Shown: piece after piece, positions 1 to 21,035 of the stretch | How positions within the stretch are numbered: position 1 is the first letter of the stretch | Layout of the letters: every line of letters begins with the position of its first letter | Assembly: GCA_001941225.1 (NCBI GenBank) | Contig: MSHM01000019.1 | Location: forward strand, 1-64,000 | Reading direction: 5' to 3' | Source: Oscillospiraceae bacterium Zagget12 | Lineage (GTDB): Bacteria; Bacillota; Clostridia; UBA1381 | Length of the DNA stretch: 64,000 nt | The notes under the pieces: generated by a model | Told to the model about the DNA's origin: nothing | Seen by the model: the letters and a program-made list of their open reading frames with translations, nothing else | The model's database searches: none | Position numbers and translations under genes: made by a program

Positions 1-2790
1 CTGTCTAATGTTGTAAAAGAGCTTTTTCCGCCATTTGTTATAGATGAAAAAACCGAAACCTCCGAGAATAATAATGAATTATTAATCAAAAAACTATCAC
101 ATAATTCAAAAACAAATTTTATTTTAATCGGAGACGGAGGTTCCGGAAAAACAGTTGCTTTAAGGAGCATATTTAAATATTTTATCGGTGACGGCACTCC
201 CGCCATATATATACCGTTAAACAAAATTATGTTTTCCGAGAGAATAACTATATTATCATATTTAGAAGACGAATTATCGTTGACATGGGATGTCATTAAA
301 CGCTACGGAAGGTGTGAAACAAACAACAGACCGTTACGCATTTTGTTCGACGGCTTAAATGAAACCCAAGGCGATAGGAAAAAAATCCTTTCCGAGATTT
401 GTGATATTATGCGTTGGAGCAATGTACAGGTTATTATTTCTTCAAGAAATGATTTTAGCGAAAGCTTAGCTCAGGATATTTCTTTTAAAAAAATAGAGCT
501 AAAGCCCTTAGAAGAAAATGTAGTCAAGCTTGTTCTTGAAAATGCGGGGATTAATTATAAAGCAAATTCAAAAATTTTGCTGTTATTGTCCAATCCGCTG
601 ATGCTTACCCTCTATATGAATACCGATCCGGCAATAATGGATATGTACAAACCGTTATCCAAATACGAAAACTATTACAAAATAAATATCAGCAAAGAAC
701 CTGCCTCTTCCAGCGAAATTATATGGAATTTTTTACAGAGCCAGCTGTATCGCGCAGACGAAACACCATCGAGCCAATTCGTATATGATACTTTTGTTTT
801 GATAGAATATATCCTCCCTATTATCGCAAATCATATGCTGATTAATAACAAAATTGAAATTTCCAAAGCTCAATTTCTTGAAATATTAACCGATATACCC
901 AACAGAGAGGATTACAAATATTATTACAATAACAGAATTGCGGAAAATATTGAATTTGCTTTAGATGCCGATGAATATGAACTCAAAAAAAACAACATAA
1001 GAAAAACATTATTCAACAAATTATCGCTTATGGTTGAATCGGATGATAGGGAGTGTTATGAATTTTTTCACCAAAGCTTTAGAGACTTTTTTTCAGCTAT
1101 GTTTATTTCCAAAAAACTCGAAATGCTGGCGAATAAAAAAACCACGGACCTTACCGAAATTTCAAAAATACAATATCCGCTTGAAGTATTAAAATATGCC
1201 TCCGATATTAGTATGGAAAACAGGGCAAAGCCCGTATGGAATGACAGCGGTATAGCATATCCCGGAAAAGAGGCATTGCTCGCAGCCTCATCTTTCTCAG
1301 ATGCGGAAAAAGCGTTGAATTTGTGCAGACAATTACGCGGAGAAACGGCGCAAAATATTGTTTTCAACATTTTTAACATTATGTTTATCGGAAGGGATAA
1401 GAATTTATCAAACTGTGACTTCTCCTTTTTGGATTTAAAAAAATGCAATTTAAAAGGAGGTATATATACCGAGTGGTATAACGACGATATATATCCATCC
1501 TCGTTTGAACATTCTTCCATAGATTTGGAATCATTTATAAGCTCCGGTCACACCGCCGCGGTTTCCGCAATTTGCGAAGGAATGAACGGATTGTTTTCCG
1601 CCGATACCGACGGTAGTATCAGGCATTGGAATTATGAAAAAACAGATCCCGATTTAGTGATTGATACACAAGGAAGTGCGATTATCGGATTAAGCTATTC
1701 CGAATCACAAAATAAATTGGCAATTCTAAAACAACATAGTATATATTCATATGATATTATAACCGGCGAATTAATACAAATTGCCAATAGTAAAAATACA
1801 TATCGATATATTAGATATACCGATGATGAACCGGAAATAACTTATGATACGGAGCCTCTTATATGGCTGAGTATAAGCGGAAGAAAAAAATACGATTATT
1901 TGGAAAATGATATACCTTGCGGGTGCTCAATAATAAATTCTTCCCATTCAACTATATTAAGAAGTTATTTATTCGGATCAATACATAAATATGATGTTCA
2001 AACCAACGAACTTTGCGATGAGCTTGACTTATTTAAAACAGCAAACGGCGCGGGAATAACTGATATGCAGTACAGCATTGATGAAACTCGATTTTTGGTT
2101 GGATTTGGCAAATACCTTTTTGAGTTTGACAGTAAATCATTATCGCAAATACATATGCTTGAATTTAAATCCTCGGTAAAATCAGTTTTATATACAAGAG
2201 AAAACAAGATTATTGCAGCTGTCAGCACAAGCATTATGGTTTTAAACAAGGATTTTTCACTGTATAAAGAATTTACCGGAGAATCGCTCCCGAATATCAT
2301 CAAAACACTTGATAACGACGGAGAGTTACATTTTTTAGATACAACCGGAACCATTAAGCATATTTCCGGCGATATGAGAGTTTATCGAACAAGGAAACCA
2401 TGGTTTAAGCCTATGGCTATTGCGTTTGGAGAATTCGGCAACGGTAATAAGCATACAACAATGTTTATGATAACAAACAACAAAAAGCTATCTAAAGATT
2501 CTTCCAAAAAGTGTGTCGGATATGACTTTAACAAGAATTACGTATATGAAATTAATAAGGAATATGAGATTTTTAATCTGTTTTATGAAAATGAGCAATC
2601 CGAATATGAAATTTATAAGCTGGCAAATAAAATTATTGCTATTAACAAAAAAACTTCCGAATCAATTCTGTTTGTGAATTATAAGGGAATTACAATTTAC
2701 GGCTGTAATTTCAAAGATATTTCGGGTAGTTTATCAAGTCCGGACGGGCTCCATTTTCTATTACAGAACGGAGGTATAATCAATGAATAA
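1..2790 (+). CDS. NACHT-type STAND NTPase with pentapeptide-like linker and C-terminal WD40-like beta-propeller; 5' end lies outside the window
   Basis: Frame 1 is open from base 1, upstream of the listed ATG at 229. Walker A GDGGSGKT at 130-153, Walker B RILFDGLNE, VQVIISSRND sensor, NPLMLTLY motif, NLSNCDFSFLDLKKCNLKG linker, SGHTAAVSAICEGMNGLFSADTDGSIRHWNYEK WD40-like repeat. Confidence 0.85.
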   Translation: MSNVVKELFPPFVIDEKTETSENNNELLIKKLSHNSKTNFILIGDGGSGKTVALRSIFKYFIGDGTPAIYIPLNKIMFSERITILSYLEDELSLTWDVIKRYGRCETNNRPLRILFDGLNETQGDRKKILSEICDIMRWSNVQVIISSRNDFSESLAQDISFKKIELKPLEENVVKLVLENAGINYKANSKILLLLSNPLMLTLYMNTDPAIMDMYKPLSKYENYYKINISKEPASSSEIIWNFLQSQLYRADETPSSQFVYDTFVLIEYILPIIANHMLINNKIEISKAQFLEILTDIPNREDYKYYYNNRIAENIEFALDADEYELKKNNIRKTLFNKLSLMVESDDRECYEFFHQSFRDFFSAMFISKKLEMLANKKTTDLTEISKIQYPLEVLKYASDISMENRAKPVWNDSGIAYPGKEALLAASSFSDAEKALNLCRQLRGETAQNIVFNIFNIMFIGRDKNLSNCDFSFLDLKKCNLKGGIYTEWYNDDIYPSSFEHSSIDLESFISSGHTAAVSAICEGMNGLFSADTDGSIRHWNYEKTDPDLVIDTQGSAIIGLSYSESQNKLAILKQHSIYSYDIITGELIQIANSKNTYRYIRYTDDEPEITYDTEPLIWLSISGRKKYDYLENDIPCGCSIINSSHSTILRSYLFGSIHKYDVQTNELCDELDLFKTANGAGITDMQYSIDETRFLVGFGKYLFEFDSKSLSQIHMLEFKSSVKSVLYTRENKIIAAVSTSIMVLNKDFSLYKEFTGESLPNIIKTLDNDGELHFLDTTGTIKHISGDMRVYRTRKPWFKPMAIAFGEFGNGNKHTTMFMITNNKKLSKDSSKKCVGYDFNKNYVYEINKEYEIFNLFYENEQSEYEIYKLANKIIAINKKTSESILFVNYKGITIYGCNFKDISGSLSSPDGLHFLLQNGGIINE

Positions 2791-4645
2791 TAATATAGAA
2801 ATAAGGTTTTATGATTTCTCAATATGCAAATGTAAGGTTTATGTCAAAGATAAAAATTCAAATATTGAATCCTCCGGTTTTGTAATTGCGGAGGTTAATA
2901 ATTCTATCCTGGTATATAAACCCAATACATACGCTACCGATTACTGGCCGTGGACAGATATATCCTGGAAAGAATTAAAAAATGCAATTACTTACGAATT
3001 CAAAAATAAATTTAAGTCTTTTGGAGAATTAAAAGTAAACTTCCGCAAGGGAGATTCGGATAATAAATTCATAGCAGATGTAGAGTATCCGTTTTTGGAT
3101 ATAAACATAAAGGGCTGTATAATTACGCTCAAGGGAAAGCATCCCTTTGTCTATCTGCCGCCAAACTTCACTTGGCAATACAGTGATGTCTCTTGGATTG
3201 AAGTCAGAAAACATATTGTTGACCTCTTCAATAAAAGACAAAAGTCCTTTTCCTCAAGCGAGCCTCCCGCAAAAAAGGAAGTGCCGGAGAAATCAGAAAA
3301 AACGGACAATGTATTTCAAACAGTTATACATACGGTTGAAAGCAACGGAACAGCATTGTTTGATATAAGTATACCAAAAGCAAATTATGAGCTTAAAAAC
3401 GGTGCAATTTATTATTTGAGCGACGAGAACATTCACGTTAATCTGCCCTCCGACTTTCCCGTTATACCTAAGGAAAATATAACCAGAAAGACGGCTGCTA
3501 AAGAAATTCGTACCAAATATTTGCAGGCAATACAAAATATCGAAGTTTCTACTTACGCCAAGGCAGAACCGCAATTTGAAACAAATTCCAACAAAAACAA
3601 ATACGGTCGAATTAAGAATGCGGACGGAATCCCTTTTGCTTTTGTTCCCAATTCCGAATTAAGACCGGTCGGCGAAATTTCCGACATAAATAAATTTTAT
3701 ATAGCTAAAAATTTATTGAAAGCATTAAGTACCAACAATATTGGTGTTTTTGAAATTGACACACTGTCGCTAATAGAAAAATTCAGGTATCTTACCAGTA
3801 CTATGATTATTGATTTGTTTGCCAGCGGATATATTTCACATGGTTGGCGAAATATTACCCAGGACAAATTAACAAGAATTTTCAAGAGATTATCCGCGCA
3901 TAATTTAGTAAATGTATCTAAGCTGGTTCGTGTCGATGAAACCGAACGAAACAATATCACATCCGAGGCTGTTTATCGCATATTTTCGCTCGGCGAAACC
4001 GGAAATAGATTGTTAAGTGAGCTTAACAGAGCTCATCATTACAATCCTTTCGATGTTTTCCAAAACGGCAATTTTGTCAAATCAATTCTTGCCGCAAACC
4101 AGTGGTTGGTTTATTGGTTGAGCTCATATCCCAACGAAATAAAAGACAATTATGATACGTCAAAGGTAATCCATGCGCTGGGAGCCGAAAAAAGCGGCGC
4201 CAGAATTTATTCGATGGTACGATGCAATAAGACTGCAATCATTGGTGAACCCGTAAGACGTACATATGAGTTTGAGCAGGATTTAAATTCAAATGAAATT
4301 AAAGAAAAACTATGTCGATTGATTAAATTAATTGACTTTGAAGGAGATTTATATTCCAACAGCGGATATAGACCAATTAAATTTAACCTTGACGCTGATT
4401 CTGTAATATGTTATATATGTGAAGATGATGAACATATCAGAGATGTATGGAGCATACTGAAACCGATAGCAGCAGAACATTCAAACAAAAAGATTTGGTT
4501 TACAACAGATGCGCGTTTGTTTAATTATTCCTATGAAAACAACCGTTTTCTTACTTTTAACCAAAATGACGAAATTAATTTTGTTGATTTGCAAGCGGAA
4601 ATGCAGCTGGGCAAGGAACGCGCATATGACTCTGACCTGCAATAA
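2783..4645 (+). CDS. Partner of the NACHT protein: three degenerate N-terminal repeats plus a winged-helix (replication-relaxation-like) region
   Basis: 620-aa ORF overlapping the NACHT gene by 8 bp. wHTH-like segment KFRYLTSTMIIDLF...KLTRIFKRLSAHNLV...YRIFSLGETGNRLL. Confidence 0.6.
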   Translation: MNNNIEIRFYDFSICKCKVYVKDKNSNIESSGFVIAEVNNSILVYKPNTYATDYWPWTDISWKELKNAITYEFKNKFKSFGELKVNFRKGDSDNKFIADVEYPFLDINIKGCIITLKGKHPFVYLPPNFTWQYSDVSWIEVRKHIVDLFNKRQKSFSSSEPPAKKEVPEKSEKTDNVFQTVIHTVESNGTALFDISIPKANYELKNGAIYYLSDENIHVNLPSDFPVIPKENITRKTAAKEIRTKYLQAIQNIEVSTYAKAEPQFETNSNKNKYGRIKNADGIPFAFVPNSELRPVGEISDINKFYIAKNLLKALSTNNIGVFEIDTLSLIEKFRYLTSTMIIDLFASGYISHGWRNITQDKLTRIFKRLSAHNLVNVSKLVRVDETERNNITSEAVYRIFSLGETGNRLLSELNRAHHYNPFDVFQNGNFVKSILAANQWLVYWLSSYPNEIKDNYDTSKVIHALGAEKSGARIYSMVRCNKTAIIGEPVRRTYEFEQDLNSNEIKEKLCRLIKLIDFEGDLYSNSGYRPIKFNLDADSVICYICEDDEHIRDVWSILKPIAAEHSNKKIWFTTDARLFNYSYENNRFLTFNQNDEINFVDLQAEMQLGKERAYDSDLQ

Positions 4646-20750: not shown

Positions 20751-21035
20751 TTATTCAGCCTCTGCTGCTATGTCTTCTTCATCTTCAATCGCGTCATATG
20801 CTGCGAGAACCTTATTCTCAAGCATACCGCGCATTTCGCTGTTTATCGGGTGAGCTATATCTCTGTACTCACCGTCCGGAGTTCTTCTGCTTGGCATAGC
20901 AACAAACAACTTTTCAGGTCCATCAATAACCTTTACATCATGTACTGCAAAAGCATTGTCAAATGTTACGGACGCTACCGCTTTCATTTTCCCGTCACCG
21001 GTGACCTTCTTTATTCTGATGTCTGTTATTTCCAC
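20751..21035 (-). CDS. spoVG: Septation protein SpoVG
   Basis: [68 protein letters not shown] start. Confidence 0.95.

Follow-up and report, generated by a model that had tools for sequence, protein, structure and literature searches.

Why should a bacterial receptor resembling the NOD-like receptors (NLRs) be encoded together with a second, separate protein of unfamiliar architecture? The question is raised by two overlapping forward-strand genes at the left end of contig C19 (MSHM01000019.1) of Oscillospiraceae bacterium Zagget12, the contig that opens with the 64,000-nucleotide stretch analysed here (the window). The first gene encodes a TIR-NACHT-pentapeptide-propeller protein (the receptor), the second a 620-residue protein (the partner). 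Bacterial NACHT proteins sense phage (PMC12169576), the switching on of TIR-type NADases by phage proteins is established (PMC13174449, PMC11984713), and the TIR-NLR of P4-like satellites is described as protecting Escherichia coli from phages (PMC9122126). We favour, with a probability of about 60%, a split two-gene TIR-NLR-type immune module in which the partner provides a second sensing or licensing arm. Receptor and partner are probably two parts of a single phage-defence machine belonging to a type not previously described.

The partner gene (2783–4645) starts at an ATG at 2783 and overlaps the end of the receptor gene (stop at 2788–2790) by 8 bp, as the sequence-only reading had indicated, and the two are probably translated together; its ribosome-binding site, GGAGG (2770–2774), lies within the end of the receptor gene, 8 nt before the ATG. 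That reading also depended on homologues of the two proteins co-occurring, and they do so in five other genomes. Relatives were collected by searching 85,462 GTDB species genomes with an alignment of four receptors (95 returned, 80 kept). A Clostridia metagenome-assembled genome (MAG) from roe-deer colon (RGIG4273, locus L056) contains overlapping receptor and partner genes that are 48.5% and 48.0% identical to those of the window over their full length. Because adjacent, overlapping, full-length homologues of both proteins are found there, the pairing is not a matter of chance. Other pairs are more diverged: a partner-like gene also overlaps the receptor gene in a Selenomonadaceae MAG from red deer (L057, E 3.5e-48) and lies approximately 10 bp downstream of it in a Eubacterium MAG (L061). 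In two more genomes, a water-deer caecum MAG (G153, locus L050, the same as L069) and G227 (L055), the receptor domains (TIR-NACHT-pentapeptide-propeller) and, after them, the partner C-terminal module form one polypeptide, encoded by a single gene of 1608 or 1654 codons. In the alignment, the window receptor ends at the exact point where the fused proteins run on into the partner domain (C-terminal motif GCNFKDISG...LLQNGGIINE, 2686–2787). The modules of the window, L056 and L057 are homologous to those of the fused proteins and L061 (hhalign probability 98.8, P 8e-17, 271 columns). A BLASTP comparison of the window partner with a single fused protein fell short of significance (E 0.8), and a profile of the stand-alone family described below failed against the two fused C-termini alone; profiles of larger membership settled the homology.

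The full-length partner is rare and was revealed only through the receptor-based search, since single-sequence pattern scans with the partner gave no match in viral contigs or GTDB genomes and tblastn gave none in plasmids or phages. In a tree of 40 NACHT modules (L055 left out), the partner-bearing ones fall into two separate groups, and the starred branches force at least two changes; the pairing has arisen either by two gains, or by one gain with losses. The only relative on a viral contig (IMGVR_UViG_3300010261_000140, L136) is a NACHT protein that groups with L061 and L050 and has no partner module. A NACHT-pentapeptide-WD40 protein at L049:4814-7718 (G267:C30; also L062) has another N-terminus, helix-turn-helix-like by eye, and no partner; it is apparently split in the WD40 region, and the next gene encodes a DapA-like enzyme.

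In the window, the 5' end of the receptor gene is cut off by the contig boundary (the genome is 1.90 Mb and 77% complete). The sequence-only reading correctly observed that the ATG listed at 229 hides the P-loop: frame 1 is already open from base 1, and GDGGSGKT is encoded at 130–153 (residues 44–51 of the window protein). Bases 1–97 of C19 are identical to the final 97 bases of contig C30, and the sequence is found at these two places only in the assembly. Joining C30 to C19 produces a receptor open reading frame of 1110 codons, with an ATG at C30:30548 preceded by GGAGG. The join is very likely real, because the L056 receptor is collinear across it without a gap. On the basis of this collinearity, the open reading frame and the overlap, the window (1–2790) contains residues 182–1110 of the receptor, while residues 1–181, the part with the TIR domain, are encoded outside it at G000:C30:30548-31090 (G000 being the source genome).

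The recovered N-terminus matches PF13676 (TIR_2) at 2.6e-21, with 76.8 bits against a cut-off of 28, and PF01582 at 1.8e-7. Motif conservation was read from an alignment with three distant relatives, in which the TIR catalytic glutamate (E80, in FCGKE) is invariant. The receptor is therefore a TIR effector on a signal transduction ATPase with numerous domains (STAND), rather than the non-STAND protein that upstream sequence might have disclosed. A TIR domain retaining its catalytic glutamate would be expected to cleave NAD+. NPHP3_N is matched above its Pfam cut-off and the NACHT model just under (22.9 versus 26.7). Invariant positions comprise G, G, G, K and T of the Walker A motif, or P-loop; D, G, N and E of the Walker B or NACHT acidic motif LRILFDGLNE (DGxNE type, 334–363); and H, Q, R, D, F and A of the winged-helix motif FFHQSFRDFFSAMF (HQxxRDFFxA, 1060–1101), which marks the end of the NACHT module. 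The STAND/NACHT arrangement of an N-terminal effector, these three motifs and a C-terminal repeat sensor is thus present in full. The pentapeptide-like linker noticed earlier is a short stretch (1402–1458) that scores 13.1 bits with PF00805, under the cut-off, and is kept in relatives.

The WD40-like C-terminus proposed by the sequence-only reading gives weak WD40 Pfam matches and a confidently modelled β-propeller. While the AlphaFold2 model of the receptor is poor overall, with a predicted local distance difference test (pLDDT) score of 47.6, the propeller at approximately residues 521–760 (1543–2280) reaches 75–91; a second propeller may follow it to approximately 2680. In the PDB, Foldseek ranks human apoptosome and full-length Apaf-1 structures first (E 1e-16) and WD40 propellers next, with the APAF-1 match spanning 960 columns. 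From these matches, the receptor is predicted to be laid out as effector, switch and propeller sensor, as in APAF-1.

The partner had been called uncharacterised. PADLOC-DB contains no match for it (searches of PDB sequences and PHROGs with the partner gave none either), but a recognisable theme emerges from sequence comparison, namely a nucleic-acid-binding-type front end joined to a Replic_Relax-like module with apparent winged helix-turn-helix (wHTH) and restriction endonuclease (REase)-like parts. The front end consists of three tandem ββββα repeats (R1, 2789–3022; R2, 3023–3262; R3, 3305–3550). The tandem repetition is clear for R1 and R2 (hhalign probability 96.6) and weaker for R3; strands followed by a helix are predicted for each, confidently for R1 and R2. 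Position, a homologue and the predicted fold are the only grounds on which we call the repeats SpoVG-like, because the SpoVG profile aligns in the same register without significance (hhalign P 0.03); there is no Pfam match of the window repeats to SpoVG (PF04026). At the matching place, the L061 partner has a true SpoVG domain (1.3e-24), and the N-terminus of the L057 partner is an S1 domain (PF00575, 4.9e-19). Stand-alone relatives of the C-terminal half, proteins of approximately 315 residues in 12 class-level genomes, are encoded immediately downstream of a gene with an S1 domain at 8 of the 11 loci. Together with the SpoVG and S1 domains of L061 and L057, this neighbourhood points to a nucleic-acid-binding-type front end, combined with the Replic_Relax-like module, as the constant element. 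A housekeeping SpoVG gene is located at 20793–21032 on the reverse strand of the window, 16 kb away from the pair. Tandem SpoVG proteins also occur outside the receptor-partner system: a same-genus genome encodes a 231-residue protein with two SpoVG domains (G002:C12:55092-55565, L200).

The C-terminal half shows profile homology to Replic_Relax (PF13814; probability 98.9). One stand-alone relative (L006) passes the Pfam cut-off, at 29.0 versus 25.3, and another falls narrowly under it; the window partner itself gives no such Pfam match, even with the C-terminal half alone. The stand-alone proteins (L006, L007, L009-L017) are kept in several genomes of the same class. A winged-helix-like region (3737–3967) is suggested by the homologues' PF13814 match, at low model confidence in the window partner. 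It is followed by an endonuclease-fold-like core (4067–4612) with conserved LAxNQW, ExxRR, K, EDxxH and TTD, modelled with the αβββαβ strand order of restriction endonucleases. Most leading Foldseek matches of this core are REase-fold nucleases (Can2, Cdn1, BspD6I, McrC), all weak at E ≥0.004.

This fold permits an alternative that makes the partner a second effector: the core would be an active PD-(D/E)XK-type nuclease, guided by the SpoVG-like, S1 and wHTH parts and activated by the receptor, so that infection triggers NAD+ loss and nucleic-acid cleavage together. The strand order and the identity of the Foldseek matches agree with it, as does the retention of E489, R492 and K509 in most family members (R492 and E547 are invariant). 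Against it, the best Foldseek E-value is just 0.004, the canonical D...ExK site is not conserved, with E489 replaced by Q or R in the two fused proteins, and STAND effectors are normally N-terminal, a place already held by the TIR domain. We consider a second effector unlikely and, because the ExK site is not conserved, think it more probable that the partner binds or regulates than that it acts as a catalyst.

The preferred reading, a receptor with a second sensing or licensing arm, can be cast as a mechanism. The partner would form a complex with the receptor, docking where the propeller region ends, and would hold or license the receptor. A phage-derived signal, either nucleic acid or a phage factor acting on the nucleic-acid-binding arm or the propeller, would free the NACHT module, which would then bind ATP and oligomerise. 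The TIR domains would assemble as a consequence, NAD+ would be consumed or an NAD-derived signal made, and the infected cell would stop growing. Three points weigh against this scheme. TIR-NACHT-WD40 proteins exist that have no partner (L063, L065), which shows that the architecture in itself does not demand one; the choice of sensor over effector or regulator is based on position and domain type only; and in the source genome the neighbours are housekeeping genes with no defence island.

The pair resembles known systems in part. The APAF-1 apoptosome and TEP1/NWD1 (DUF4062-NACHT-WD40, PMC13174449) share the order of effector, STAND ATPase and WD40 propeller, whereas the window receptor is bacterial, has TIR_2 in place of CARD or DUF4062, and has an extra partner arm. 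bNACHT25 (PMC12169576) likewise combines an N-terminal effector, central NACHT and C-terminal sensor, but its effector is a nuclease and its C-terminus differs, in contrast to the TIR effector, propeller sensor and separately encoded arm found here. In the P4-satellite system (PMC9122126), a TIR is placed on an NLR-type NTPase as in the window receptor; the available part of that description, by which rather than by sequence the two are set apart, presents no SpoVG/S1-Replic_Relax partner. Swarozyc and SpbK (PMC13174449, PMC11984713) are TIR-type NADases activated by a phage protein and have a TIR-type effector in common with the window system, but no STAND module or such partner is reported there; the effector of the window receptor is TIR_2, as opposed to the DUF4062 TIR-like effector that defines Swarozyc. 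PADLOC-DB matches of the receptor are partial and confined to TIR (Thoeris ThsB, pAgo-associated TIR and others). In the papers found, the Replic_Relax family is mentioned for plasmids, mobile elements and phages, whereas the window module goes with a TIR-NACHT receptor. In the literature searched, we found no paper joining SpoVG with NACHT, and none of the Replic_Relax papers concerned NLRs.

A regulatory role could also mean that the partner acts as a repressor or an antitoxin-like guard. It would keep the TIR toxin silent by binding either the receptor or the DNA or RNA of the operon that encodes it, and the toxin would be freed when phage shuts off expression. The overlapping two-gene layout is compatible with a guard, as are regulatory domains of the wHTH and SpoVG types, SpoVG being a nucleic-acid-binding regulator (PMC4959528). 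The partner is large, though, and lies downstream of the toxin gene, and in relatives its second half is fused to the receptor C-terminus, which better fits a receptor arm; a guard is therefore unlikely.

Equally unlikely is a role for the receptor as the input branch of a phospho-signalling pathway, a possibility that stems from neighbouring genes in relatives. A protein kinase of approximately 1390 residues with a C-terminal Card1-like endonuclease (PF00069, PF09002) is encoded just before the pair in L056, L057 and L061; the gene is frameshifted in L057, and one small or kinase-TIR gene intervenes in L056 and L061 (in the latter a protein kinase fused to TIR, L061:6412-7626). The other fetched NACHT loci gave no full-length kinase-Card1. 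In the source genome, a copy that is 32% identical resides on contig C9 (G000:C9:1-8900, L139), in an operon ordered as a 504-residue protein, a PP2C phosphatase, the Ser/Thr kinase-Card1 and a TPR protein, whose N-terminus resembles DUF4062 (LASSIEDLNFDR) by eye only. Homologues of the C9 operon genes are present in L056, L061, L196 (G321) and L197 (G203), and L198 (G396) has a related kinase-Card1; around the operons of the last three genomes lie TIR genes of various kinds. Among the low-level kinase or TIR matches, most were unrelated single-domain hits.

On such a pathway, the TIR domain would make an NAD-derived messenger or be phospho-controlled, and kinase-Card1 with PP2C would be the downstream actuator, in trans in the source genome. 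The recurrent position of kinase-Card1 beside the pair and the TIR genes gathered around its core elsewhere are in keeping with this. Conversely, the pair and the core are on different contigs here, the core comes with a TPR gene of its own, and no full-length kinase-Card1 was found in the fused-version genomes G153 and G227. Because of this last result, kinase-Card1 appears, from gene content, to be an optional companion of the pair, and the C9-type operon is possibly a separate defence signalling system. By eye, the L061 module (L061:1-18148) lies near a ClpP-like gene and a VirD4/TraG-type coupling-protein gene, and the same company recurs near kinase-Card1 in L198, which suggests carriage by a conjugative element. 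No description of a link between TIR-NACHT and a kinase/phosphatase/Card1-endonuclease operon was found in the literature searched.

We give similarly little credence to an integrated-decoy arrangement by analogy with the paired NLRs of plants, in which the SpoVG, S1 or SpoVG-like domains of the partner, as copies of nucleic-acid-binding domains from common cellular proteins, would be bait for phage factors that act on the transcription and translation machinery, the partner reporting the attack to the TIR-NACHT receptor.

The pair is located between the purine-biosynthesis (pur) cluster and rubrerythrin/Fur genes. Its GC content is 34.6%, versus 46.1 ± 2.3% (minimum 39.7%) in 4.6-kb stretches of the remaining window, and no homologues of the pair were found in 15 sampled same-genus genomes, in a set of 95 genomes from the order or among the remaining 398 members of a phylum sample of 399 genomes. 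These two features give the pair the look of a rare cassette acquired by horizontal transfer. An empty site was sought by purE/rubrerythrin adjacency in the 15 same-genus genomes, none of which has rubrerythrin beside purE, and the search revealed no such site. The gene upstream of purE varies among most same-genus genomes examined, the end of the purine cluster being a variable junction in the genus (G000:C30 end, L202-L216). The least probable alternative, and a very unlikely one, is a role outside defence, with a chromosomal STAND pair signalling through its TIR in host physiology. The housekeeping surroundings and the ordinary chromosomal setting of the stand-alone C-terminal relatives beside S1 genes speak for it; the low GC content, the absence from these samples and the TIR effector speak against it.

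Under the favoured reading, the pair would represent a bacterial NLR whose sensing tail is encoded by a separate gene. Its relatives form an evolutionary series of split, overlapping and fused versions, with the front end swapped among SpoVG, S1 and SpoVG-like repeats, and this series would open the question of what the extra arm of a bacterial NLR recognises to direct testing. A further link brought out by the pair is that between TIR-NACHT receptors and a kinase/phosphatase/Card1-endonuclease operon around which many TIR proteins gather.

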